64,000 nt of DNA from Ignavibacteriota bacterium (GTDB lineage: Bacteria; Bacteroidota; Ignavibacteria; Tepidaquicellales; Tepidaquicellaceae), in contig JACREY010000015.1 in NCBI GenBank assembly GCA_016218085.1, forward strand, positions 1 through 64,000, given 5' to 3'. The notes under the pieces are model-generated. The model searched no databases. It saw only the letters and a list, made by a program, of their open reading frames with translations, and was not told the origin of the DNA. Positions 33,553 to 51,963 of this stretch are shown one piece after another. Numbering within the stretch: the stretch's first letter is position 1; the number at the start of each line of letters is the position of its first letter. The translations under genes were made by a program, and so were the position numbers.

Positions 33553-34545
33553 TTATCCATGATTAATGACGTCCAGCCATTTTTCCTTAACATTATTCCA
33601 GTCAAAACCAAGAATTTTATCCCTCAGGTTTTTCCTTTTATAAGTGAATTTTTCGGGTTGCTCAAAATAATCTGATAATATTTTAATATATTCTTCCCTG
33701 GTATTATTTTCAACAAAAGCGATTTCTTGATCGCCGAATGTTGTATTAATACCGCCCACTCTTGAACTTATAACAAGCAGATCATAAAATCCTGCCTCAA
33801 AAATCGTGTTCGGGATATTATCCATTAAAGTTGTGTTCATTAAAACCGAGTAGTTCATAAATTCCTTTAAAAGTGTTTCCCGTTCGACAAGTCCGTGAAA
33901 AATGATTCTACTGTTCCGGTATTTTCGCTTTAATTCATTCAGAAGGGAACCGTCTCCATAAAAATGAAATTCACAATCGTATTTACCCGTTAACTCCTCT
34001 GCTATACTTAATGCCATATCAGGCCGGTACAGCCGTTCGAAGCTCCTGGCCCAAACCACTTTCCTGTTGACAACCACATCATGGTCCGGTCCGGGAAAAT
34101 TTTCAAAATCAAATATGTTATCGATTTTTTCGGCAGCCGGATATCCTCTTTCTTTAAAAACGTTGAGTAAAAAATCCGACGCAACTATTATTTTATTTTT
34201 ACCAAAAACCTGTTTCAGCCAGAAATTATTTTTTTCGAGAAACTTTTCCGCCTGTCCACCGTGATAATTGAAGATTACTCTTTTATTCAAAAAAAAAGCA
34301 GCTGCTGCTGCCGCGAAAACCGGATAAAAACCGAAATAAGAACATCCGTTTCCGATTATTAAATCACATTTTTTTCCTGCTCTAACTGCATTGATAAGCC
34401 CCTTAATCCTGAAGAAAATACTACCGTATGTATTGACTAAATTCACATCGAACTTTTTTTCCACGAGTTTCCTTTTAAGCAGCAGAACCTGTTCGGTAAT
34501 ACCGCTCTTACTTTTTCTGTAATTTAGGACAAAGAGAATTCTCAA
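33553..34545 (-). CDS. GT4-like glycosyltransferase
   Basis: A 330-aa GT-B protein: RILFVLNYRKSKSG at the start, KVVWARSFERLYRPDMAL at the linker and the C-terminal IPNTIFEAG...VGG nucleotide site. The TTG start overlaps the stop of the downstream-transcribed neighbour (TTGA). The usual E-x7-E motif is weak. A polysaccharide-elongating transferase. Confidence 0.8.
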   Translation of the reverse strand: MRILFVLNYRKSKSGITEQVLLLKRKLVEKKFDVNLVNTYGSIFFRIKGLINAVRAGKKCDLIIGNGCSYFGFYPVFAAAAAAFFLNKRVIFNYHGGQAEKFLEKNNFWLKQVFGKNKIIVASDFLLNVFKERGYPAAEKIDNIFDFENFPGPDHDVVVNRKVVWARSFERLYRPDMALSIAEELTGKYDCEFHFYGDGSLLNELKRKYRNSRIIFHGLVERETLLKEFMNYSVLMNTTLMDNIPNTIFEAGFYDLLVISSRVGGINTTFGDQEIAFVENNTREEYIKILSDYFEQPEKFTYKRKNLRDKILGFDWNNVKEKWLDVINHG

Positions 34546-36368
34546 ACCGAATCAAAATACTTTTTCAGGGATATAAAATGCGAGTACTTGAGTAAATCTT
34601 TCAGATAGCTTTTATTTTCAAAATTATCTCTTAAACCCTTTCCAAAAACATCATATTTGCTTTCTTCAGATAAAGTATCCCTGATAAATCCCTCTGTCCA
34701 CTTTTCCGAATTAAATGTATCATTACCTTTTATTTTTTTATATGCGGAAGTTTTCCTTATCCCCTTGTATATCGAAATAAAATTAAAAGGGAAAAGTTTC
34801 AGCAGGTCATCCGGCTCATATCCCCTGTCCAGCCTGAATCTGCCAAGCTCAGGTTTGAACCTCCTGTAAATATGCGCATAAAGGAGCTGGCCTTTTCTTC
34901 TTTTGAATTTGCTTTTCCCTAAAAATCCGTTGTACATTCCGGCAAACGGGGTTTTATACATCAGCTCGACGAAATCATCATCGAAGAAAGGGAACCTTGT
35001 AGTTACATAAACCCGCTCTATCTGTATTTCCTGAGAAAAATATTTCCGCACTCCCTCCTGCAGTATGAAAAAGAAAAACCTCAATATCTTGTCATATTTA
35101 TTGTACTTATCAAAATACTCTTTTTTCAGTTCATTCCAGACATCATCGTAACTTGATTCAATTATTTCTTTTCTCAGATAATTTTTTTTAATAATTGATT
35201 CAAATATGTTTTTCAATTCTTTTTCAGGATTGTCAGATAAGAAAAGCTTTTCCGAATAATCGTTGATCATTATACCGAGATTATGAAGAGGGCGCATCAC
35301 TTCGCTTCCGAAAAGACCTGTAATAATTACATCTGAAAAATTTTTAAGGTTTTTATAAGCAAAAGGATAATTCGAACGGAGAATCGGAGCAGTCGCATTC
35401 GAATGCTCGATTGCATCAAGCGTGCATTCGTCGTGTTCCAATTCATATTTTTCATCAAGAATTACGGGTTTGAAATTATAATTCAGACTTTCGCAGATTT
35501 TTTCGGGAATTTCCACCTGCTGGCTACCGGGCATACCATAAGAGTAGCAGAGAAAATCATCCTTTTTGCGCTCAAGCAAAGCGAGATTCGCTCTGCCGTC
35601 AAATCCGCCCGTTACAGCAATCAAAACTTTATCCGCATCAGTACAGTATAAATTCGTATTATAATGCAGTTGTTCAGTCAATAAATCAAGAGATTCCTTT
35701 TTCCTAAGAAGTTTTGCATTATATAAATTTTCCACACTCCAGTAGCTGCTGCCGGATATTCCACCGATGCTGACATTATATATCATACCATTTTCAATTC
35801 TGCTGATTTCCCTGAAATGCGTTTTATTACCGAGCGTGTAATCAAAAATAATCTGTTCAGTTAATGCAGTTTTATTCAATTCCTTCGATACGAGTTTTGT
35901 GTCGAGTATCATTCTGACCGATGATGAAAGTATAAAATAATTATCATTGTATGCGTAATACAATGGCAGGACATTCATTCTGTCGCTTATTATTTTTGTC
36001 TCATTGCACTCAGAATCGAAAATAATTATTACAAAAGAGCCTTTTAGATATTTTGCCAAATCATCTCCGAACTGTAAGTATAATCGAAAAACATATTCGG
36101 CATTTGCTTTCATCGGTTTCACATCATGTTTCTTTTCATATAGATTATTCGTATAAACAGTTCCGAAAATAAAAATTACATTATTGCTTTTTTCAAAAAA
36201 ATTATAGTTTGTCTCATTTCTCTCGAGATAAGTTACAAATGAATTTTTGTAATTCCTTTTATATTCTGTAGATTTTATGTTATTATAGTGCGGATTATTG
36301 AGAAAAGAAAATTTTCCTTCGCCGGAAATATTATTTTTAAAATCTATTATTTGGAAAAAATCAAACAT
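34542..36368 (-). CDS. Asparagine-synthetase-like protein without glutaminase Cys
   Basis: The 608-aa protein keeps the two-domain AsnB layout but begins MFDFFQII, so the Cys2 nucleophile is absent and glutamine hydrolysis is impossible. The ATP-pyrophosphatase P-loop reads TGGFDGRANL (about 255-264) instead of SGGxDS. Ser is replaced by Gly. Enzymes of this shape, such as beta-lactam synthetase and lasso-peptide cyclase, adenylate a carboxylate and attack it with an amine of another substrate. The adjacent ATP-grasp gene overlaps it (TAATG), so both probably form amide bonds in decorating the glycan. The reaction is unknown. Confidence 0.75.
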   Translation of the reverse strand: MFDFFQIIDFKNNISGEGKFSFLNNPHYNNIKSTEYKRNYKNSFVTYLERNETNYNFFEKSNNVIFIFGTVYTNNLYEKKHDVKPMKANAEYVFRLYLQFGDDLAKYLKGSFVIIIFDSECNETKIISDRMNVLPLYYAYNDNYFILSSSVRMILDTKLVSKELNKTALTEQIIFDYTLGNKTHFREISRIENGMIYNVSIGGISGSSYWSVENLYNAKLLRKKESLDLLTEQLHYNTNLYCTDADKVLIAVTGGFDGRANLALLERKKDDFLCYSYGMPGSQQVEIPEKICESLNYNFKPVILDEKYELEHDECTLDAIEHSNATAPILRSNYPFAYKNLKNFSDVIITGLFGSEVMRPLHNLGIMINDYSEKLFLSDNPEKELKNIFESIIKKNYLRKEIIESSYDDVWNELKKEYFDKYNKYDKILRFFFFILQEGVRKYFSQEIQIERVYVTTRFPFFDDDFVELMYKTPFAGMYNGFLGKSKFKRRKGQLLYAHIYRRFKPELGRFRLDRGYEPDDLLKLFPFNFISIYKGIRKTSAYKKIKGNDTFNSEKWTEGFIRDTLSEESKYDVFGKGLRDNFENKSYLKDLLKYSHFISLKKYFDSV

Positions 36369-37573
36369 TAGTTTCCTTTGATTTTCTTGAATATTCTTTT
36401 GAATATCCCCTTTAAAAGTGTTCTGATTAAATGCATCGTAAGTCCCGGATCATTAAGTTTCATATCACTTATATAAACGGGAAATTTCAGATATGATTCG
36501 GCAATTTTCCCAAGCGGTATTATCCCCTGGCTGACATAGTCGGCTGAAGCCCTCAAATCCCTGTGTACCGATATCCATCGTATATCAGTATTCCTGTTTT
36601 CAACAGGTATTAATCTTTCACCTAGAAGTTCCTTATAACTCATCATTGCAACGTCTATTCCGAATTTTGTTCCGATTTCATCCCACAATCCGAACCTTGG
36701 ATTTACTTCTATTAATTTATATTGATTATCTCTTAAATCCTTTTTCACTTCAACACCCGATATTCCCCAGAATTTCATTTTCACCAGCCACCTTACTACC
36801 TGGTCCTGCAGTTCTTCATTATATTTAATATTAACATAGCTCGCACTTCCGAAATGCGGTGGAGCGACTCTCTCCTTTATTCCGGTAAACGAACCCATGC
36901 AGTTCTGATTTCTGTCCATATATGATACGAAATAATGCAGATTGCTGTCCTCACCTCTAATAATCTCCTGAACAATTACCCTGTCGTCATGCTTCCTTAT
37001 TGTTTCATATTTTTCTATTACTTCCTCTGCCGAATTCACAAAAATAACCTTTTCTCCTTTACAATACTCTTCCAGGAAACCTGACCTCCAAGATTCAGGA
37101 AATTCAGGTTTTAATATACACGGGAATTCCACATCTGCTGCAAACCTGTTAAGCTCATCAATATCCTTTACAAAGCATGTTTTGGGTGCCGGGAATCCGT
37201 ATTTTACCGCCAGTTCGTAGCTGTATCTCTTACTTGTTAATTTTCTAAGTATGCCGCCCTTTGGCATAGTAAAATAAAAATGCTCGGACAGTTCTTCTGA
37301 AAAATCATTTAACGGCAGAATAAATTTATCGGCTGTTGGTATTAGCACGGGTTTAATTCCGAAGTCCCTACTAATTCTCATCAGATAATCAAAAAATTCC
37401 TTTCCGTTTTTTTCAGGGTCGGGACAAACGCTTTTTATTCCGTATTTTGAGTAAAAGCCGAGTTCCTTCGGATTGCATTCCAGCCCGTATGCTTCTATTT
37501 CGGATTTCCGGAAATGCCTCATAAGCGAAACACCCGGTGTAGACAGGCCTAATATAATTACAGGATTTTTCAT
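36368..37573 (-). CDS. ATP-grasp ligase
   Basis: 401 aa with VIILGLSTPGVSLMRHF then an ATP-grasp core: FPCILKPEFPESW, VIVQEIIRGEDSNLHYF and KLIEVNPRFGLWDEIG, including the Glu/Asn metal ligands (LIEVNPR). ATP-grasp enzymes of this carB-like group join a carboxylate to an amine via acyl phosphate. It is co-translated with the Cys-less asparagine-synthetase-like gene. Substrate unknown; probable amide or peptide bond formation on a glycan precursor. Confidence 0.8.
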   Translation of the reverse strand: MKNPVIILGLSTPGVSLMRHFRKSEIEAYGLECNPKELGFYSKYGIKSVCPDPEKNGKEFFDYLMRISRDFGIKPVLIPTADKFILPLNDFSEELSEHFYFTMPKGGILRKLTSKRYSYELAVKYGFPAPKTCFVKDIDELNRFAADVEFPCILKPEFPESWRSGFLEEYCKGEKVIFVNSAEEVIEKYETIRKHDDRVIVQEIIRGEDSNLHYFVSYMDRNQNCMGSFTGIKERVAPPHFGSASYVNIKYNEELQDQVVRWLVKMKFWGISGVEVKKDLRDNQYKLIEVNPRFGLWDEIGTKFGIDVAMMSYKELLGERLIPVENRNTDIRWISVHRDLRASADYVSQGIIPLGKIAESYLKFPVYISDMKLNDPGLTMHLIRTLLKGIFKRIFKKIKGN

Positions 37574-37574
37574 T

Positions 37575-38315
37575 TTATTTTTTTTGGAATAAATATCCCA
37601 TTAGCTCAAGATTTTTAAGAACTGTATATTTCAGCAAAGATTTGAACTTGAACATAGGGAAATTTTTTCCAGTGAAGAATTTATCGCTGCTAATAATATA
37701 ATCTATAACTTTAATAACCCTATCAGACTGTAGAAGCCTGCTATGGTCAAGATTCGGATAGTCATTTTTGTAATCTTCCGTAGAAAATGTCGGAGGACTA
37801 ACAACATTCACAGAAATATTTTTATCATTGAGATACTTTGCAAGACTTTGGGAATATGCAATCAGGCCTGCCTTCGAACTGCAGTATGCTGTCCCTTCTT
37901 TATAGCTTGTCATTCCTGCATTTGAGGCAATGTTAATAATTTTTCCTGATTTATTTTTCAGAAAATGCGGAATCATTCTCCGGCATAATAAAATCTGAGA
38001 TGTAAGATTTGTATTTATAGCTTCTTTATACTCATCTTCGGTAATTTCATCCGGCATTTTAAACAACTTCAAAGCAGCATTGTTAATCAGAACATCAACC
38101 TTACCTAAAAACTCTATTCCTTTTTCTACAGCGTTCTTTAAATCACTATCATCGGTCACAGAGCCGATATAAAACCCAGTTTTTTCGGCGTTAATTTCTT
38201 TCAAATAATCAGGTTCATTAATCGATATCCCGAAAACCTTATGTCCTTTTTTGGTGAAATAAAGAACCATTTCTTTGCCCAGTCCCCTTGAAATACCTGT
38301 AATGAAAAGATTCAT
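37575..38315 (-). CDS. Short-chain dehydrogenase/reductase
   Basis: The 246-aa protein is a classical SDR: FITGISRGLGKEM for NAD(P) binding, NNAALK, and catalytic Tyr-x3-Lys in GTAYCSSKAGL. It has a hydrophobic C-terminus (KNLELMGYLF). Its ATG overlaps the stop of the SGNH-like gene (ATGA), so it is tied to the Dlt-like block. It may make or reduce the acyl or sugar moiety used there. Confidence 0.85.
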   Translation of the reverse strand: MNLFITGISRGLGKEMVLYFTKKGHKVFGISINEPDYLKEINAEKTGFYIGSVTDDSDLKNAVEKGIEFLGKVDVLINNAALKLFKMPDEITEDEYKEAINTNLTSQILLCRRMIPHFLKNKSGKIINIASNAGMTSYKEGTAYCSSKAGLIAYSQSLAKYLNDKNISVNVVSPPTFSTEDYKNDYPNLDHSRLLQSDRVIKVIDYIISSDKFFTGKNFPMFKFKSLLKYTVLKNLELMGYLFQKK

Positions 38316-39262
38316 TTTCTGTGTAAATAATGTTTAGTGTAAATCTGATTTAAAAAATAACCAAGCTTGCTATTCCCGTTCTCGTTTAAATGCCAGTCTC
38401 CGATTATTTGATTTTCAGGAATCATGAGATTTGAATATTCGAACTTGATATTATTTAGCTTGCAGAATGAATCAATCCTCATATTTATTGTATCATTGTT
38501 CATAATAGATACACAAATAAATTTCTCTTTATATTTTTTATCAAATTGCATCAGGCATATTTCAAGATCAGTTAAATCTACCTTATTAGCATCCGGGGGT
38601 TCCACTGAGGGCTCTACCACCTGCTCTGCATTAGCGCCCTGAACCAATGTTAACATCAGCCTTGCACAGGATAAATTATTTCTTATTAGAAGATTTATCT
38701 TCGTTCTAAATGTATTATCAATTGTGAATAAGTCACTGTTCAATTCGAAGGGGTTTTCAGTTAGCCTGTAAGAATCCGAATTATATGCATTAATAACCAG
38801 TATTACAGTTTCGGGTTTAAACTTTTTCTCATAATAATATATTCTTCTGTAAGAATCATACGGGTCATAACCGTTATAACCCAGATTCAAAACATTATAA
38901 TTTTTGTCGGTATCTTTTAACAGATTCTGCATTACAGATGTAGACAAAGCTTCGGGTTTAATATAATTATTTTCTATGAATGATGAACCGAGAATGCAGA
39001 CATATTTTGAATTTACTCCTGTATCACAATCAATACCCGGAAGTCCAAGGTTATTTCTTTTGTATATTTCGAACTTACCTTTTGAATTCCAGTACTTCGA
39101 ATATGGTTTATATATATTCTGATGCCCGGGTGAGCATCTAAGCCCTTTCATTTTAACTTCGACACCGTATTTCGGAAATCCAAGCATGCTTCCAATCAGG
39201 ATTTCGCTGAAAAACAGTGCAGTTATTAATGCAACTGTTATTGTAAATAATTTTTTTACCAA
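38312..39262 (-). CDS. DltD/AlgX-like SGNH acyltransferase
   Basis: The 316-aa protein has one N-terminal membrane helix (about residues 5-27) and an extracytoplasmic SGNH-hydrolase-like domain: LGSSFIEN with Ser93/Ser94, LGYNGYDPYDS (block with Gly/Asn) and DWHLNENG with Asp289 and His291. This is the catalytic set used by DltD and AlgX/PatB-like proteins to move acyl groups from an MBOAT to a polymer. Start is TTG at 39262, six bases past the stop of the microprotein gene. It sits last in the order carrier-MBOAT-microprotein-SGNH. Confidence 0.78.
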   Translation of the reverse strand: MVKKLFTITVALITALFFSEILIGSMLGFPKYGVEVKMKGLRCSPGHQNIYKPYSKYWNSKGKFEIYKRNNLGLPGIDCDTGVNSKYVCILGSSFIENNYIKPEALSTSVMQNLLKDTDKNYNVLNLGYNGYDPYDSYRRIYYYEKKFKPETVILVINAYNSDSYRLTENPFELNSDLFTIDNTFRTKINLLIRNNLSCARLMLTLVQGANAEQVVEPSVEPPDANKVDLTDLEICLMQFDKKYKEKFICVSIMNNDTINMRIDSFCKLNNIKFEYSNLMIPENQIIGDWHLNENGNSKLGYFLNQIYTKHYLHRK

Positions 39263-39268
39263 ATTAAT

Positions 39269-39400
39269 TTAGAAATCACCGTAAATAAAAGGCCTGCTTA
39301 ACTTTGCAATCAGTTTAAAAAATGCCAGTGATGACAGGGAAATTATCAGCATCAGGAATAGCAAGAAATATTTAAGGAATATTTTATAATTATTATTCAT
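39269..39400 (-). CDS. DltX-like microprotein with C-terminal FIYGDF
   Basis: This 43-aa protein has a short basic N-terminus (MNNNYKIFLK), one membrane helix (about 11-31), and ends PFIYGDF, with Tyr40. As I recall, Gram-positive DltX has the same plan (about 50 aa, one TM) and ends FIYNEF, its C-terminal Tyr carrying the D-alanyl group from DltB to DltD. The start I use is the ATG one base after the MBOAT stop (TGA-A-ATG). The neighbour MBOAT at 42681-44192 has FIYQQF fused to its C-terminus, which supports a real functional motif. Also possible: a frameshifted, shortened MBOAT tail. Confidence 0.72.
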   Translation of the reverse strand: MNNNYKIFLKYFLLFLMLIISLSSLAFFKLIAKLSRPFIYGDF

Positions 39401-39401
39401 T

Positions 39402-40550
39402 TCATCTGAAAAATATCCAGCAGAATGAAACATACACAAAAGTAAACAACGTACCGGCAGCATTAAACCATTTAGTACCCGACATTTGATTTAATGCCGG
39501 ATTCTTTCTTTTAATTATTACCCATACCTGGTAAATAAATATTGCAAATCCGTGGCACAATCCCCAGTAAACGAAATGCATTGCAGGTCCGTGCCACAAT
39601 CCGCACAAGCCCATTGCAATTAGCGGAACAAAAAAAATCTGCCAGGTTTTATTTTTAAATACCGGACTTAACGGGAAGAATAGATAATCCCTTATCCAGT
39701 CTGAAAGCGAAATGTGCCAGCTTCTCCAGAATTGAGCAATGTTGGACTTCAAATAAGGATAATCAAAATTTTCCATAATTTTAAAGCCATACAATCTGGA
39801 AGCACCAATTGCTATGTCGCTATATGCAGAAAAGTCCAAATAAATCTGTATAGAATAACCAAAGAGCGCCAATATTTTAATTCCTGCCGGATAATTTCCG
39901 GGGTTTTCCCATACAGGAGCGATAAAAAATCCGAGCCAGTCTGCGACGACAAATTTTTTGAATAATCCGAAAACAATCCTTTTGAATGACTCTTCAATAA
40001 AAACACCGCTAAATTTGTTTTCTCTCCCTGATTCAATTTTAAATCTCGAAAATCTTTCTATCGGTCCGGCAATGTAAATCGTAAATAATGAGCTGTACAA
40101 AAGAAAATCTGCAAATCTGCCTTTGTTGTTTATTCCCCAGTAAACATCAGTAAGATAACTTATATGCTTGAAAATAATATATGAAATTCCGAGAGGTAAC
40201 AGTACAAACTCAATTTTAAAAACAGGTAGCGATGAAATGAAATTATCAAGAGATGATAAAACTTCGTTCAGGAAACCCAGATACTTGAAAATAACGAGCA
40301 ATATTACCAGGCCCGTAATTCCTAATCTGTGAAAAATCCGCTTTCCTTTGTTTTTCTCGATTAGAACGGCAAACATATAAGAATATAAAATCAATATAAC
40401 AGCAATGATTGCGGAATATTTATCGAAATAAGAAATGAACGCAATGCTCGCAGCTGATAAAAAATAATTCCTGATTATTTGTTTAGGAATCAGCCAGTAT
40501 ATTACTGCGCCTGTTGCAAGAAGTGTGTAAAATTCTATTCCGACAATCAA
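39402..40550 (-). CDS. Short DltB-like MBOAT O-acyltransferase
   Basis: The 382-aa membrane protein has the MBOAT core: YLDFSAYSDIAIGASRLYGF, FWRSWHISLSDWIRDYLFFPLS and LCGLWHGPAMHFVYWG with the conserved His320. It ends at CWIFFR, exactly where the neighbour MBOAT continues for about 107 more residues, so it lacks the C-terminal extension and resembles DltB (about 400 aa). The following 43-aa gene would supply the missing terminal motif. The start is TTG. It should take an acyl group from the carrier protein encoded next (40552-40782) and pass it outward. Confidence 0.85.
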   Translation of the reverse strand: MIVGIEFYTLLATGAVIYWLIPKQIIRNYFLSAASIAFISYFDKYSAIIAVILILYSYMFAVLIEKNKGKRIFHRLGITGLVILLVIFKYLGFLNEVLSSLDNFISSLPVFKIEFVLLPLGISYIIFKHISYLTDVYWGINNKGRFADFLLYSSLFTIYIAGPIERFSRFKIESGRENKFSGVFIEESFKRIVFGLFKKFVVADWLGFFIAPVWENPGNYPAGIKILALFGYSIQIYLDFSAYSDIAIGASRLYGFKIMENFDYPYLKSNIAQFWRSWHISLSDWIRDYLFFPLSPVFKNKTWQIFFVPLIAMGLCGLWHGPAMHFVYWGLCHGFAIFIYQVWVIIKRKNPALNQMSGTKWFNAAGTLFTFVYVSFCWIFFR

Positions 40551-40551
40551 A

Positions 40552-40782
40552 TTAATATCTGTTAATAATTTCTATCATCTGCTTTACCGTATCAAATGAT
40601 TCTGCTGTTATTAACGGAGGAGGGATTTTCTTTCCGAATTCCCTTTCTATATAAGCCTGAAGCGAAAACAACGAAAAGGAATCGACAATACCGCTTGATA
40701 TTAATTTCGACTCAGCCGTTATTTCCGTACCGGGATCCGAGAGAAATTCATTTTTTATAAATTCAATCAGCTTTTCTTCCAT
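40552..40782 (-). CDS. Acyl/aminoacyl carrier protein, DltC-like
   Basis: The 76-aa protein has the phosphopantetheine site in SGIVDSFSLFSL, with Ser35 next to Asp34, and ends with helix IV. The context GxVDSF, not DSL, together with its size resembles DltC-type carriers rather than fatty-acid ACP. It is encoded two bases upstream of the DltB-like MBOAT, so it should present the thioester-bound group to it. No 4'-phosphopantetheinyl transferase is in the window. Confidence 0.82.
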   Translation of the reverse strand: MEEKLIEFIKNEFLSDPGTEITAESKLISSGIVDSFSLFSLQAYIEREFGKKIPPPLITAESFDTVKQMIEIINRY

Positions 40783-40783
40783 A

Positions 40784-41770
40784 TTAATTATTTTTATTCA
40801 ACATGCACGTATATTCACCGGCCGTTGTAAGTAATATTTTATCCGATTTTTCACATAAATATGATAGTACTTCGGGAAAAATATTATTCAGGAAAACCGA
40901 ATCGAACGATGGATGGAACCAGAAAACACAAAGTGAATTATTTTTAATTGCCCTGTCTAAGATTGTTTTATAAAACTTTATATTATATTCGACAGTCCAG
41001 TATTTTCTGTATGTCAGCTCCATCGTTCCTTTAATATCCCACAATCCCGATTTATGTTTTACCGGATATCCGAGTATATTTCCGTAGTCCGTTCTGTATG
41101 AATCGAATCCGAGCTTCTTAAGACTTGTCAGGTTGCCAATTGTATGCCCCGGATGCACAAATGATTTTAATTCAATTTTCTTTTCAACCGCGAGCCTTTT
41201 GCATTCATTAATTTCCGCTTCAAATACTTCCGAAGTGCAGACCTCATCCCTGCAGTCTATGTGAGAAAATGTATGACAACCGATTTCGTGTTTTATTTTT
41301 GATTTTAAAATCTTATCTATTAAATCAGGACAGTACCATTCCGGGTTATCCTGAAAATTACCGCACGGGTCATCATCGAACCATTCGCCTGCCTGGTATT
41401 TCCAGTATTCATTCTCAAAGTATTTGTTTCTCGGTATATTAGGATGAGGCTTTCCGTTTTCTTTTTTGCATTCTTCAAGAAACAAATGCCCTACGGTTGC
41501 CCAGGTTACAGGTGCATTATATTTATCGCATAAGCTCAAGATACCGGGTATATTATCTCTTTCCCGCCGAGCAATTTTTCCAATTTCAGATTTATTATTA
41601 ATAAAGGCTTTTGAATAGCGCCAGGCCCAGGCAAGCTCAAAATCAGCATAAAGCAAAACGACAGAATCATAAGGCTCGGGAATGTATTTTCTGAATTTGC
41701 TGCACTTTTCGACTTTAGGATTATATCCCAGCCTGAATTTTATTTTTCTTAAATTCGAATGTAAGCTCAA
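40784..41770 (-). CDS. Polysaccharide deacetylase-fold protein
   Basis: 328 aa: YADFELAWAWR in the first-strand position, then HEIGCHTFSHIDC with the H-x3-H metal histidines, SFVHPGHTIGN and FWFHPSFDS for the last His motif. NodB-like fold with no signal peptide. Its TTG start overlaps the SGNH2 stop (TTGA). It links the carrier gene with the second MBOAT/SGNH pair. The DD/DE triad of true deacetylases is altered (DFE), so the reaction could differ. Confidence 0.75.
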   Translation of the reverse strand: MSLHSNLRKIKFRLGYNPKVEKCSKFRKYIPEPYDSVVLLYADFELAWAWRYSKAFINNKSEIGKIARRERDNIPGILSLCDKYNAPVTWATVGHLFLEECKKENGKPHPNIPRNKYFENEYWKYQAGEWFDDDPCGNFQDNPEWYCPDLIDKILKSKIKHEIGCHTFSHIDCRDEVCTSEVFEAEINECKRLAVEKKIELKSFVHPGHTIGNLTSLKKLGFDSYRTDYGNILGYPVKHKSGLWDIKGTMELTYRKYWTVEYNIKFYKTILDRAIKNNSLCVFWFHPSFDSVFLNNIFPEVLSYLCEKSDKILLTTAGEYTCMLNKNN

Positions 41771-42681
41771 AATTCTTTCCTCAGCACTTTTTTTATAAAC
41801 AAATCGGTCAATATATCCTTCTTTAAGTGAAATGGGTCGTTGAATTTCTCCTTATCAGCCCAAGAAGAATCATCTTCTTCCGCATCTACAAATACAGAGT
41901 TTTCCGAACAAATCGATTTTAATTCGTTTTTAAATCTTAAATAGTTACTGTCAAGTGAATACTTTGCCAAGAAGGCTCTAAAGTCATTATGATTAGGCAG
42001 GAAGAATAAACAGATATTTATTTTTTCTCTCTTGCATTCTGACAAAATACCTTTTAAAGAATTTATATATTCTGCAGGATATTTAAATTTTTTAAGGAAA
42101 TCATTTTCATTTTTCGCAAGTAAATATTCCCAGAAATCTTCTTTTGACATTTCAGGTTGTTCAATCAGAAAAATATTTTCAGAATTATTGTTTAAGACAC
42201 AAAGAAAAGCAGATTCAAGGATTTCTGTATTCGTGTAGTAAAGAAGCGGATTTTGTATAATATCGACAGCCCCCTTTACCCTGTCTTTAGTTTTATCAAA
42301 GTTAAGATTGAAACTAACACCTAAATATATATTCTTTATCTTTTTAGTTTTAATCAGATCAAATGCACTTTTTGTTTCCTGTAATGTTCCTCCTGCAATC
42401 GAAAAATCTGAATATTTTTCACCTGTTACATTTTCAATCCTATCATAATCCAGTCCTTCAACTCTTGAATCCCCGAGAACCACATTATAATTACTATTTT
42501 CATTGAATCTCAGTACTTTCCAAAACCCATAATTAATTTTTGACGCATATTTTTTTTTAACATCATATTTTATAAGATCTGATATTTTCACGAAGTTAAA
42601 CGGGTCAATCAAAGTTATTATAGTCACATAAATCAGTGCTGGTACAATAAAAATCAAAGACTTGAATAAAAGTTTTTTCAT
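41767..42681 (-). CDS. SGNH acyltransferase partner of the second MBOAT
   Basis: The 304-aa protein has an N-terminal membrane helix (about 5-25). It then shows VVLGDSRVEG with the nucleophile Ser72 and DPFHLKKD with Asp282/His285, the SGNH catalytic residues of AlgX/AlgJ/PatB-like acetyltransferases. GDSR and DxxH are intact, so it should work outside the membrane. It overlaps the MBOAT stop by one base (TGATG). Confidence 0.8.
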   Translation of the reverse strand: MKKLLFKSLIFIVPALIYVTIITLIDPFNFVKISDLIKYDVKKKYASKINYGFWKVLRFNENSNYNVVLGDSRVEGLDYDRIENVTGEKYSDFSIAGGTLQETKSAFDLIKTKKIKNIYLGVSFNLNFDKTKDRVKGAVDIIQNPLLYYTNTEILESAFLCVLNNNSENIFLIEQPEMSKEDFWEYLLAKNENDFLKKFKYPAEYINSLKGILSECKREKINICLFFLPNHNDFRAFLAKYSLDSNYLRFKNELKSICSENSVFVDAEEDDSSWADKEKFNDPFHLKKDILTDLFIKKVLRKEF

Positions 42682-44192
42682 CAGAACTGCTGGTATATAA
42701 ATCCCTGTTGTGAATTATATGCACCGAAAAATATTACTGATATTAATAATGCATAATACAGGCTCCACCTGATTAACTTATTCTGTTTTTTTATTCTCTC
42801 GAATATATTGAACCTTTCTTGTAAAATATCCACGGTTAAAAGGACCGCAATAAAAACAATACTAAGATATAATTCCTTATACGATAATCCGTAAGTCTTT
42901 AAAATGTTTTTTATAATCCCAGAACCGTTTGAATTATTAATAATTCCGCTCCACGAGAAAATATTTGAAAATATTTGTCCGATTTCTTTTAATGTATCTG
43001 ATTTAAAGAATATCCATGATATACTAACGAGAAGGAATGTAAACATTATTTTAGATAAACTGATAAATGGATTTGCATTATTGATATGAAATTTTGATTT
43101 TAACGCTCTTCTTGTTTTTTTGAAAAGCAACGAAAGAACCAGCAGTATGCCGAAATACAAACCCCATATTGCGAATGTTATATTTGCCCCATGCCATAAA
43201 CCGCATACAATCATTGTAATTAAAGATGCAATGATATACGAGGCATAATCAATTCGAATATTTATTTTCCTTTCCATAAGAATCCTCGCAATTGAGTATG
43301 AAAGAGGCAGGAAAATATATTCCTGTAACCATTTAGAAAGCGATATATGCCACCTTTTCCAGAATTCTGCAATACTTTTTGACAGATACGGACGTTTGAA
43401 ATTATTTATTACATCGATACCGATAAACTTTGAAAATCCGTATGCAATGTAACTGTATCCAGAGAAATCACAATATATCTGAACAGTAAACAATAACACG
43501 CCTATGACCATATATATTCCGTTGTAACTATTCAGATCCGAAAATATTCTGCTCGTTACAGGCGAAAGCCTGTCGGCAATAACTACTTTGCTAAAAAATC
43601 CCCATAAAATAATTTTCAGACTGTCGGTTACTCTTTCATAATCAAATGAGACTTTCCTGTCAAATTGATTAATTAAATTATTGGGTTTATCAATTGGCCC
43701 CGCCATTATTGCCGGGAAATATGATATATAGAGTGCTGCATTAACGAATTTGATATTTATTATATTCCCTCTGCCGGTCTCTATTAAATAAGTTATAGAT
43801 TTGAATATATAAAAAGACAGACCTGCAGGTATCAATAATATCAATGCCGGTTTTCCGTAATTCCACCCCATTAGATTTGTAAATCCTAATAAGTTGTCGG
43901 TTAAAAGATTTATGTATTTGTATAAAAACAACGGCACTAAATTTAATATTATTCCTGCAGTAAGATAATTTTTGTAAATATTCTTATTATTGATAATTAA
44001 TTTTGAAAAAATATATGTAACCAGAATCGAATAGAAAAGCACGACTGAAAGGTAACCCGAAATTAGGACATAAAAAAGAACACTTGCACAAAGAAGAATA
44101 TATTTACGTGCTTTACTTTTTATCGAGAAATATATAACTGAAAAAATCGTGAAAAATATTATAAATCCAATTGAATTAAATCCTAAGTTCAC
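42681..44192 (-). CDS. AlgI/PatA-like MBOAT O-acyltransferase with fused C-terminal motif
   Basis: 503 aa, about 12 helices, with YCDFSGYSYIAYGFSKF, FWKRWHISLSKWLQEY and VCGLWHGANITFAIWG (His334). After SWIFFK (393-397) it carries about 107 residues, including a last helix, ending GFIYQQF (Tyr500). This is the normal long AlgI type. The same tail motif appears as a separate protein next to the other MBOAT. The start is GTG. It probably takes acetyl from acetyl-CoA and hands it to the SGNH protein next door. Confidence 0.88.
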   Translation of the reverse strand: MNLGFNSIGFIIFFTIFSVIYFSIKSKARKYILLCASVLFYVLISGYLSVVLFYSILVTYIFSKLIINNKNIYKNYLTAGIILNLVPLFLYKYINLLTDNLLGFTNLMGWNYGKPALILLIPAGLSFYIFKSITYLIETGRGNIINIKFVNAALYISYFPAIMAGPIDKPNNLINQFDRKVSFDYERVTDSLKIILWGFFSKVVIADRLSPVTSRIFSDLNSYNGIYMVIGVLLFTVQIYCDFSGYSYIAYGFSKFIGIDVINNFKRPYLSKSIAEFWKRWHISLSKWLQEYIFLPLSYSIARILMERKINIRIDYASYIIASLITMIVCGLWHGANITFAIWGLYFGILLVLSLLFKKTRRALKSKFHINNANPFISLSKIMFTFLLVSISWIFFKSDTLKEIGQIFSNIFSWSGIINNSNGSGIIKNILKTYGLSYKELYLSIVFIAVLLTVDILQERFNIFERIKKQNKLIRWSLYYALLISVIFFGAYNSQQGFIYQQF

Positions 44193-49417: not shown

Positions 49418-50977
49418 TTATAATTCTTTTAATAATTCTTTAAGTTGTAACTTATCTGTCTTTCCGTTACGGTTTTTCGGCAGTTCTTCCATTACAATAA
49501 TTTTTTTCGGTTTCATGTAAGGGGGAAGCTTTGATTTTAAATCTTTTCCTATTTGTGCAGAATCCTTCCTCGATTTTGAATTGACAAAAGCAAGTATCTG
49601 CCCTATTCCATTCTCCTCTTTCTTATATAGGACGGCAGATTCATTAACATACTCCAGTGTATTTATAACAGATTCAATCTCCTCAAGCTCAATCCTATAC
49701 CCCATGTGCTTTATTTGATTATCGATTCTTCCTTTGAAAAGTAAATACCCGTTATCAGCTTTCTTTACAATATCACCCGTCTTATATATTTTTTCATCCA
49801 GCATTGAGTTATAAGGATTTTTTATAAAAGACTTTCTTGTTAATTCTTCATCTCCGTAATACCCAAGCCCTACATTCGGACCCTTCAGGCAAAGTTCTCC
49901 GTAAGTTTTGTCATTTTCATCTATGGGAATAATTTCATAGTCAAAATTCGGAGCAAGAAATCCAAGAGGTGCAAGTTCTGACATATTGTCAAAATCTTTT
50001 TCCGTTATTTTGTATGAAGAACATATGCAGGTGCATTCCGTCGGACCGTATACGTTCACAAATTCTGCACGTTCTTTGTATAAATCATATAAATATTTCA
50101 ACCTTGGTTTGGGAAAACCCTCTCCTCCGAATGATATTTTTCGTATATGCTTGAACTCATTCTTATTTAAGATTTTTGTTGTAATAAGATATACGAGAAA
50201 GGATGGAACTGAAAACCAAATCGTACACTTCAATTCATTAATCTTATCCAGCATTCCTCTTACATCTTTTGCAGCATCATTTGGAAATACAACAAGCCTT
50301 GTCCCCGTGAATATCGCAGTATAAAAATCGAAAACGGAATTATCGAAGTATATAGGATTGACATTTGTGAAAGCATCATCAGGTTTTACATCAAATCTCT
50401 CTTTACCCCATCCAATAAAATTAATCAGGTTCTGATGAGACATAACTGCACCCTTCGGAAAACCCGTCGAACCTGAGGTAAACATTATGTAAGCAGGATT
50501 TGATCCGTTAATTTCATGATTAATATCAAGCTTTTCCGAAAAACATCTTTTAAATTCATTTTGAAACTCAACAGAATGTAAATCAATTACAGAATATCCG
50601 TCTTCAATAAGTGCTTTATCTAGTACTTTATTATCCAGATAGTCTTTCACCACAATTTTTGGTTTACACTTCGATAATATTTTTGATATTCTTTCCCAAG
50701 GACTCGTTAAATCAAGATTCGTATAAATCGCTCCGATTTTTAAACAGGCAATCATAACAGAAAAAGCAAATTCAGATTTAGTATTAAATATCGCAACAAC
50801 ATCGCCTCTGCTTATGCCTGAACTAAGCAGATAATTCGCTATACTGTTCGATAAATCTTTTAAATCCGAAAAAGTAACAAAGTGCTTCTTGTTGTAATGC
50901 AAAGCAATGCTGTCTTTATGCTTTTTGCATACTTCATCAAATAGTATTCCGAGATTATATATATATCTATTACTCAT
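49418..50977 (-). CDS. DltA-like amino acid adenylation ligase
   Basis: The 519-aa ANL enzyme has FTSGSTGFPKG (166-176), FDNSVFDFY with Asp212 at the position that holds the amino group of an amino acid, YGPTECT, YKTGDI, GRIDNQIKHMGYRIE and Lys in NRNGKTDK. It is stand-alone, as DltA is, and sits upstream of an SDR and a carrier protein. It should make an aminoacyl-AMP and load it on the carrier at 51733-51963 or 40552-40782. Which amino acid is not evident. Confidence 0.82.
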   Translation of the reverse strand: MSNRYIYNLGILFDEVCKKHKDSIALHYNKKHFVTFSDLKDLSNSIANYLLSSGISRGDVVAIFNTKSEFAFSVMIACLKIGAIYTNLDLTSPWERISKILSKCKPKIVVKDYLDNKVLDKALIEDGYSVIDLHSVEFQNEFKRCFSEKLDINHEINGSNPAYIMFTSGSTGFPKGAVMSHQNLINFIGWGKERFDVKPDDAFTNVNPIYFDNSVFDFYTAIFTGTRLVVFPNDAAKDVRGMLDKINELKCTIWFSVPSFLVYLITTKILNKNEFKHIRKISFGGEGFPKPRLKYLYDLYKERAEFVNVYGPTECTCICSSYKITEKDFDNMSELAPLGFLAPNFDYEIIPIDENDKTYGELCLKGPNVGLGYYGDEELTRKSFIKNPYNSMLDEKIYKTGDIVKKADNGYLLFKGRIDNQIKHMGYRIELEEIESVINTLEYVNESAVLYKKEENGIGQILAFVNSKSRKDSAQIGKDLKSKLPPYMKPKKIIVMEELPKNRNGKTDKLQLKELLKEL

Positions 50978-50985
50978 ACTTCAGA

Positions 50986-51729
50986 TTATATTTTTAATCC
51001 GCCGTCCAGTTCAATTATTCTTCCGTTGAAGTATTCGTTATTAATTATAAATTTTACTGCATCAGATACTTCCTCAACCTTCCCTAACCTTTTTGAAGGA
51101 ATTGATTTTTCCCATTTCTGGATTACAGCTTCGCTCATTGCTTTTCTTGTTGATTCGGTATCGATAAATCCGGGAGCAATTCCTGCACAGCGTATATTAA
51201 ACATCCCCAGTTCCTTGCTCCACGTATTGGTTAAAGCATTTACTGCTGCTTTAGCGGCGGAATAAGCTGACTGACCTGCATTCCCGTAAGCCGAAATCGA
51301 GCTTATATTTATTATCAACCCTTTAATTCGCTTTGCAATCATTTTATCTACAACACAAACAGAAGTGTAAAAAAGGGAATTGAGATTCGCATCCATTGTC
51401 TTGTGCCACATTTCAATGTTATGTTTTCTGTCTGTCTTTGATAAAATATTAATCAGGGGTGCGCTGAATATCATTCCTGCATTATTTACCAACACATCTA
51501 TTTTCTCGTTCTCTTCAATAATCCTGTCCACCGTTTCTTCTACCTGTTTATAATCAGACAGATTGCAGCAGTAAGTTAATATTTCTGAATATTCTTTTTT
51601 AAGAATCCCTAGCATTTCCTCGTTCATATCAACAGCAATTACTTTTCCGATATCCTTTGCTAACGTTTTGGCGATATAACTTCCAAAACACCCCCCCCCG
51701 CCTGTTACAAGAATGGTTTTATTTTCCAT
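50986..51729 (-). CDS. SDR reductase with G9 tract in its N-terminus
   Basis: The 247-aa FabG-like SDR has an NAD(P) site VTGGGGCFGSYIAK. NNAGM and catalytic YSAAK in SAYSAAKAAV are present, with the C-terminal GRIIELDGG. The gly-rich loop is written across nine consecutive Gs (51691-51699). The position normally Gly is Cys14. One slipped base would shift the frame at codon 11-13 and abolish the protein. It lies between the adenylating enzyme and a carrier protein, suggesting that it reduces a carrier-bound or sugar keto group. Confidence 0.85.
   Translation of the reverse strand: MENKTILVTGGGGCFGSYIAKTLAKDIGKVIAVDMNEEMLGILKKEYSEILTYCCNLSDYKQVEETVDRIIEENEKIDVLVNNAGMIFSAPLINILSKTDRKHNIEMWHKTMDANLNSLFYTSVCVVDKMIAKRIKGLIINISSISAYGNAGQSAYSAAKAAVNALTNTWSKELGMFNIRCAGIAPGFIDTESTRKAMSEAVIQKWEKSIPSKRLGKVEEVSDAVKFIINNEYFNGRIIELDGGLKI
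51691..51699 (-). repeat. Homopolymer G9 tract in an SDR gene
   Basis: Nine C on the plus strand, nine G in the coding strand of the SDR. Runs of this length of G/C are rare in AT-rich DNA, and in pathogens they drive phase variation by slippage. Here the frame is open at nine. Confidence 0.75.
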
Positions 51730-51732
51730 ATT

Positions 51733-51963
51733 CTATAAAGTTATTTTCTTTGCTCTTAATACTTCCATAATTTCTCCAACTCCAAGCATGCTTGCTATTT
51801 CATCACCATCAAGTTCTATTTTATAAACATCCTCTATTTTCGTAATCAATTCCATATGGGTTAGCGAGTCCCACCCTTCCACATCAGCAAGCTTTAAATC
51901 ACTTTTGATTTGTTCAGGTTTAAGATTAAATAATTCGCTGAATATTTTATTCAGTTTTTCCAT
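51733..51963 (-). CDS. Acyl carrier protein
   Basis: 76 aa with DVEGWDSLTHMELI, so Ser33 is the phosphopantetheine site, and acidic helix II. It lies between the SDR and a WbqC-like gene, four bases from the SDR. Carriers in this place usually hold an amino-acyl or hydroxy-acyl group made by the neighbouring ligase for attachment to an amino-sugar. Confidence 0.85.
   Translation of the reverse strand: MEKLNKIFSELFNLKPEQIKSDLKLADVEGWDSLTHMELITKIEDVYKIELDGDEIASMLGVGEIMEVLRAKKITL

Follow-up and report, generated by a model that had tools for sequence, protein, structure and literature searches.

In a 64,000-nucleotide stretch of DNA from an Ignavibacteriota bacterium (GenBank assembly GCA_016218085.1, contig JACREY010000015.1, positions 1 to 64,000; the whole stretch is called the window here), four consecutive genes encode a carrier protein, a short membrane-bound O-acyltransferase (MBOAT), a microprotein of 43 amino acids (aa) and a putative SGNH protein. 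These four proteins probably form a self-contained module for the transfer of an acyl group over the inner membrane to an outer polymer, by way of the carrier, the MBOAT, Tyr40 of the microprotein and the SGNH protein. The module is Dlt-like in its working but is not the Dlt system, and its free helix and the fused tail of PatA/AlgI-type MBOATs replace each other among its relatives. On the minus strand, the genes are arranged in the order carrier, MBOAT, microprotein, SGNH protein:

40552..40782, minus strand: carrier protein, 76 aa, with phosphopantetheine Ser35 in GIVDSF (Pfam PP-binding, 25.4 bits, above the cut-off)
39402..40550, minus strand: short MBOAT acyltransferase, 382 aa, with His279 and His320 (Pfam MBOAT, 51 bits; DltB matched by profile and by model)
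39269..39400, minus strand: one-helix microprotein, 43 aa, with C-terminal PFIYGDF containing Tyr40 (conservation in relatives, purifying selection)
38312..39262, minus strand: predicted SGNH-fold protein, 316 aa, with an N-terminal membrane helix (residues 2-26), Ser94 and His291 (predicted fold, invariant residues)

A preliminary description of this locus had listed these four genes in a row, with Ser35 in the carrier, His320 in an MBOAT of 382 residues, and a one-helix protein of 43 residues ending in PFIYGDF that starts one base past the MBOAT stop; coordinates and translations confirm all of this. The MBOAT gene closes with the codons for WIFFR and a TGA stop, followed by a single A and then by the ATG of the small gene, whose product reads MNNNYKIF...LSRPFIYGDF before a TAA stop. 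In the mechanical list of open reading frames (ORFs) the small frame has 64 aa, owing to an in-frame ATG inside the MBOAT gene; the start that gives 43 aa is the one that relatives support.

In Dlt systems, the MBOAT takes D-alanine over from a carrier and transfers it to the tyrosine of the FxYxxF motif of DltX, from which it passes to a serine of DltD, and in PatA the tyrosine of the same motif is part of the MBOAT itself and carries the acyl group to an SGNH protein (PMC12148441). Each part of the module has its place in this published route, and the most likely order of transfer is therefore from the carrier by way of the MBOAT and the acyl-tyrosine helix to the SGNH protein. The carrier would deliver the acyl group as a thioester, which the MBOAT, by means of His320, would pass across the membrane to Tyr40 in the C-terminal motif of the microprotein; the acyl-tyrosine tail would then hand it to Ser94 of the SGNH protein, and the latter would place it on the surface glycan. 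The microprotein would accordingly be the separate-chain version of the C-terminal tail of PatA/AlgI-type MBOATs and of the service that DltX renders to DltB. We infer the formation of a complex, the acyl-tyrosine, the order of transfer and the glycan target from the anatomy of the module, that is, from genes, conservation, a natural swap of the helix and predicted folds, all of which are directly documented below.

The microprotein and its fused counterparts

A separate gene whose product ends in PFxYxxF accompanies the MBOAT in 16/16 split loci of the short-MBOAT clade, which come from Ignavibacteria and Cloacimonadota. This count includes the loci in which the end of the short MBOAT and its flanks are readable; L037/L055, L039/L053, L043/L047, L046, L048 and L056 are cut by contig ends and were left out (L and G labels designate loci and genomes). 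The microproteins have 40-55 aa and one hydrophobic helix each, and F15, P37, F38, Y40 and F43 (window numbering) are invariant in the 12/12 that were aligned, the C-terminal motif with its invariant tyrosine being the best-conserved region. The gene is under purifying selection, with a ratio of nonsynonymous to synonymous substitution rates (dN/dS) of about 0.07-0.2 in the close pairs for which dS is computable and with codon changes between close pairs concentrated at third positions. The motif by itself is a weak criterion, as a loose version of it is found at the end of dozens of random window frames. Nevertheless, position, helix, motif and codon pattern are all conserved, and in this the microprotein exceeds chance.

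The position of the microprotein gene varies, at least five gene orders being found over the 16 split loci. In the closest relatives (L034, L035, L042) it lies between MBOAT and SGNH genes as in the window, and in a second subgroup (L036/L045, L038/L052, L040/L054, L041, L044) downstream of the SGNH gene, the full order in L045, L052 and L054 being carrier-MBOAT-SGNH-microprotein. It also lies downstream of the SGNH gene in L051 and in L134 of Cloacimonadota. Other Cloacimonadota loci have the orders microprotein-Kbl-carrier-MBOAT-SGNH (L050/L057, where Kbl stands for a gene discussed below; L049 likewise has the microprotein upstream of this gene and the carrier), microprotein-carrier-MBOAT-SGNH (L133) and carrier-microprotein-MBOAT-SGNH (L132). 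The survey of relatives proposed in the preliminary description thus recovers the microprotein in every split locus, but not the constant order carrier-MBOAT-FIYxxF-SGNH.

Four MBOATs of this clade, of 455-473 aa, are longer and carry the motif at their own C-terminus, as FIYAAF in L110 and L137, PFRYAGF in L135 and FIYAGF in L136; no separate small gene was found within the 12-14 kb read around each of them. The carrier adjoins the fused MBOAT in L135, and the Kbl-like gene and the carrier do so in L136. The preliminary description had held that a longer uninterrupted MBOAT in relatives would reveal a frameshifted tail, and these four have one. However, because the small gene is intact in all 16 split loci and differs in position among them, the long MBOATs represent an alternative architecture and do not prove a frameshift. 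Loss of the motif in relatives, the other sign it had named, was not seen: the readable loci of the clade have 16 separate motifs, four fused ones and none missing.

It is extremely improbable that the 43-aa frame arose by chance or is what a frameshift or decay has left of the end of a longer MBOAT. The start of the small gene one base past the MBOAT stop, the longer relatives and the small gene of L035, which is in frame with the MBOAT stop, could all suggest it. Against it stand the intact small gene of all 16 split loci, often beyond the SGNH gene or upstream of the carrier, the strong purifying selection on this gene, and the split MBOATs themselves, which all stop at nearly the same residue and follow DltB as far as its end. 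Where the gene lies, how it is conserved and the selection on it rule this explanation out.

Sixteen split loci with a small gene against four fused loci without one are what a common function of small protein and tail would lead one to expect, and free helix and fused tail do replace each other among relatives. In a tree of the MBOAT core, with the tail columns excluded, the clade stays together (98/97), but its split members are not united: with the four fused rows included, the approximately unbiased (AU) test speaks against a single split clade (p 0.001), and at least three changes of state are needed without counting DltB. With one fused row only, a single fission is not rejected (p 0.35); once all four are in the tree, this scenario is ruled out. 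The tree is unrooted between DltB, the module clade and PatA/AlgI, so that shared and independent splitting relative to DltB are not separable in it. Both architectures of the clade occur in one Cloacimonadota genome (G507), the split MBOAT with its microprotein at L132 and the fused MBOAT at L137. Such switching supports the view that the helix is a single functional part, free as DltX and fused as the tail of PatA/AlgI, and the natural free and fused relatives are ready pairs for testing it.

The same evidence bears on the possibility that the microprotein serves the MBOAT as a structural or regulatory subunit, with no acyl group passing over its tyrosine. Small single-helix subunits often merely stabilise a partner. 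However, the best-conserved part here is the C-terminal motif with its invariant tyrosine, in DltX and PatA the acyl group is borne by the same motif (PMC12148441), and relatives swap the microprotein for a fused tail with this very motif, which makes a purely structural role unlikely.

Family models give the microprotein little recognition. Pfam DltX (PF12459) gives no match at all for the four microproteins tested (window, L034, L052, L057), whereas the control, Listeria DltX, scores 57.1 bits, and with a hidden Markov model of the tails most microproteins score no better than shuffles that preserve the motif. Profile-profile comparison of the microprotein aligned only 12 columns. The tail of the fused relative L110 does resemble AlgI, with 1/2000 shuffles scoring as high. 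The 43-codon gene escapes recognition by the models in current libraries.

The MBOAT and SGNH protein, and their relation to Dlt and PatA

The short MBOATs are a distinct class: in a survey of 148 related genomes they are 49-75% identical and have 381-393 aa (one frame reaches 457 aa through an upstream start), whereas nearly all other MBOATs of the set are 30-39% identical and have 472-562 aa, the exceptions being pieces at contig ends. Profile searches with the window MBOAT match DltB (6bug/8jem). DltB is also the best match of its AlphaFold2 model (Z 24.3, root-mean-square deviation (rmsd) 4.2 over 345 residues), residues 3-382 of which superpose on DltB 15-404; as modelled, the split MBOAT stops at the point where DltB stops, and all split MBOATs terminate at about the same residue. 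The window MBOAT, ending at 382 aa, lacks the two extra C-terminal helices and the fused motif of the PatA/AlgI type. His320 aligns with DltB His336 and His279 with DltB His289, which are named as key residues of DltB (PMC11035591), and both are invariant.

The product of 38312-39262 is predicted to have an SGNH fold: its AlphaFold2 model has a mean confidence (pLDDT) of 79.7 and matches TesA with Z 16.6 and an rmsd of 2.6 over 164 residues. The Pfam SGNH and DltD families show no match for this protein; DltD (PF04914) also gives none for the homologues of L036 and L057, though it gives 79.3 bits for the control, a plasmid DltD. S94, N126 and H291 are invariant among homologues. Of the residues named in the preliminary description (Ser93 or Ser94, Asp289 and His291), Ser94 and His291 therefore stand and Asp289, which is not conserved, falls away. 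With its catalytic-His MBOAT, an FxYxxF motif fused or on a partner, and an SGNH partner with Ser and His outside the membrane, the module has the anatomy of the MBOAT-SGNH acyl-tyrosine shuttle class.

Within this class, the module shares with the Dlt system of Firmicutes (DltC-DltB-DltX-DltD) a carrier, an MBOAT that ends at the same structural point, a separate one-helix FxYxxF protein and an SGNH protein with an N-terminal membrane helix. It differs from it in having no DltA, in that its MBOAT, microprotein, carrier and SGNH protein are all missed by Dlt models, in its separate MBOAT clade and differing gene orders, and in its setting in the glycan cluster of a two-membrane bacterium. With the PatA/PatB and AlgI-type systems, which O-acetylate peptidoglycan, alginate and cellulose, it shares the MBOAT-SGNH pair and the FIYxxF tail motif; its MBOAT clade is closer in sequence to theirs than to DltB, and some of its relatives have the tail fused as they do. 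In contrast to these systems, in which the tail is fused and carrier and microprotein are absent (PMC12148441), the module has a dedicated carrier and usually a separate gene for the tail.

A true Dlt system of Gram-positive origin that D-alanylates a glycan, with the ligase gene at 49418-50977 as its DltA, is quite unlikely. The gene content does resemble DltC-DltB-DltX-DltD, the DltA model gives the ligase 320 bits, if less than its cut-off of 476, and some Gram-negatives do have Dlt operons (PMC3544676; also L122). However, the MBOAT clade is separate from DltB in trees (support 100/99 and 98/97), and with the DltB model (NCBIfam TIGR04091) the window MBOAT scores 157.3 bits against a cut-off of 375, less than the window's own fused MBOAT (176.3). 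The Pfam DltX and DltD models miss the module while matching their controls, and the carrier reaches 18.5 bits with the DltC model (NCBIfam PRK05087) against a cut-off of 68. The ligase, for its part, lies near another carrier in the window and is absent from 10/10 other genomes with the module (E 1e-40). Family models, the MBOAT tree and the missing DltA thus rule out membership in Dlt. What holds of the Dlt-like machine proposed in the preliminary description is the DltX-like C-terminus, the carrier, the DltB-like short MBOAT, the SGNH protein and the glycan cluster, and with them, by analogy, the same kind of chemistry.

The enterobacterial Dlt operon (Dickeya, Pectobacterium; plasmid L122 in Enterobacter and Klebsiella) is likewise a Gram-negative carrier-MBOAT-SGNH set, but a DltA-like ligase is part of it, Pfam DltD recognises its SGNH protein, and in the tree its MBOAT joins DltB, if on a long branch. 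The plasmid operon (NZ_CP071862.1; same DNA in NZ_CP041250.1) runs dltD, a 40-aa 'hypothetical protein', short MBOAT, AMP ligase, acyl carrier protein; the 40-aa protein (L122:2129-2251) ends in FEYQKF and looks like a Gram-negative DltX missed by Pfam.

Pathways of MBOAT-SGNH type other than Dlt are said to have neither a DltX-like microprotein nor a carrier (2025 paper, PMC12148441). The module, by contrast, combines the two without belonging to the Dlt families, and it does so in two phyla of bacteria with two membranes; the open literature, of which our coverage is incomplete, yielded no account of a DltX-like protein in a system other than Dlt.

The carrier and the acyl donor

Carrier homologues that are 59-76% identical stand beside short or fused MBOATs, with D34 and S35 invariant. 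The carrier gene lies directly upstream of the MBOAT gene in most loci, fused ones included, and close relatives of the carrier are almost confined to genomes with such MBOATs. One genome (G020) has three short MBOATs and one dedicated carrier, and a shared carrier is the simplest reading both for this genome and for the loci without an adjoining one.

Several points weigh against the route from carrier to glycan proposed here. No carrier stands beside the MBOAT in L034, L035, L041 and L134, where the donor could be a shared carrier or an acyl-CoA. Alignment of the microprotein with DltX and MBOAT C-termini, as suggested in the preliminary description, brings out the common terminal motif, outside of which homology to DltX or to PatA/AlgI tails is not demonstrable. 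The MBOAT model, built on an alignment of nine sequences, has moderate confidence (pLDDT 73.1), and L051 and L049 contain N runs or a frameshift.

The first of these points also favours a variant in which the shuttle is the same but the MBOAT uses acyl-CoA as PatA does, the carrier serving another step, e.g., that of the Kbl-like enzyme. The closeness of the clade to PatA/AlgI-type MBOATs agrees with it, as does the presence beside the carrier, in seven loci, of a Kbl-like enzyme, a type that normally uses CoA thioesters. However, the position of the carrier gene directly before the MBOAT gene and the near restriction of its close relatives to genomes with such MBOATs speak for the carrier as donor, and we consider the acyl-CoA variant the less probable one, if with some claim to attention.

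The DltA-like AMP ligase belongs to a row of genes (49418-51963) that also includes a FabG-like short-chain dehydrogenase/reductase (SDR) and a second carrier and that adjoins a NeuD-like acetyltransferase; it retains the Asp at the amino-group-binding site of amino-acid-activating domains. As a general loader of the module carrier it is ruled out by its absence from the other module genomes. D-alanine cannot be taken as the default acyl group, since the module comes without a DltA.

The Kbl-like gene, which encodes a pyridoxal phosphate (PLP) enzyme related to glycine C-acetyltransferase, lies directly before the carrier gene in seven loci (L046, L049, L050, L051, L056, L057, L136), an arrangement seen in many Cloacimonadota, and the two enzymes tested both score above the cut-off of the glycine C-acetyltransferase model. 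It occurs in 6/7 module genomes and in 18/141 others (Fisher p 6e-5), an association confounded by kinship; most of the 24/148 relatives that have it have no short MBOAT. A conserved operon of Ignavibacteria (L106:7777-11680, G000:C18:139776-143679), which lacks an MBOAT, combines a Kbl-like enzyme with an acyl-activating ligase and a relative of the module carrier; this rules out the enzyme as a constant part of the module and implies that it and the carrier family were linked before the module arose or are linked more widely than in it. Tentatively, the module might represent a third kind of acyl shuttle, in which a carrier charged without an adenylating enzyme feeds an MBOAT with a free or fused helix; in Cloacimonadota it would perhaps be charged by the Kbl-like enzyme, cleaving a 2-amino-3-oxo acid onto the carrier thiol.

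Distribution and genomic setting

The dedicated carrier is found in 7/148 relatives, in 1/395 genomes drawn over the phylum, and at 13 loci in the genome collection, which belong to Ignavibacteria, assemblies labelled Bacteroidetes and Cloacimonadota; MBOATs of the clade occur in 10/125 Cloacimonadota genomes. This scattered distribution is as expected of a surface-modification set that is often gained and lost.

Around the module, a long minus-strand cluster encodes glycosyltransferases, a UDP-glucose/GDP-mannose dehydrogenase, a DegT aminotransferase, a heptosyltransferase-like protein, methyltransferases and a NeuD-like acetyltransferase. With these neighbours, placing the module in a surface-glycan gene cluster is a sound reading, and the polysaccharide operon of the preliminary description is borne out. 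Downstream of the SGNH gene follow three genes (34542-38315) whose products may synthesise the sugar or group in question or amidate it; their order recurs in L034, L035 and L042, within the window-like subgroup only:

37575..38315, minus strand: SDR oxidoreductase
36368..37573, minus strand: ATP-grasp protein
34542..36368, minus strand: asparagine-synthase-like amidotransferase (cut by the contig end in L042)

The same cluster holds a second MBOAT-SGNH pair (41767-44192), which is of the ordinary type, with a 503-aa MBOAT that has FIYQQF fused at its own end. A third fused MBOAT, with the motif FIYANF, is encoded at G000:C6:82473-83588.

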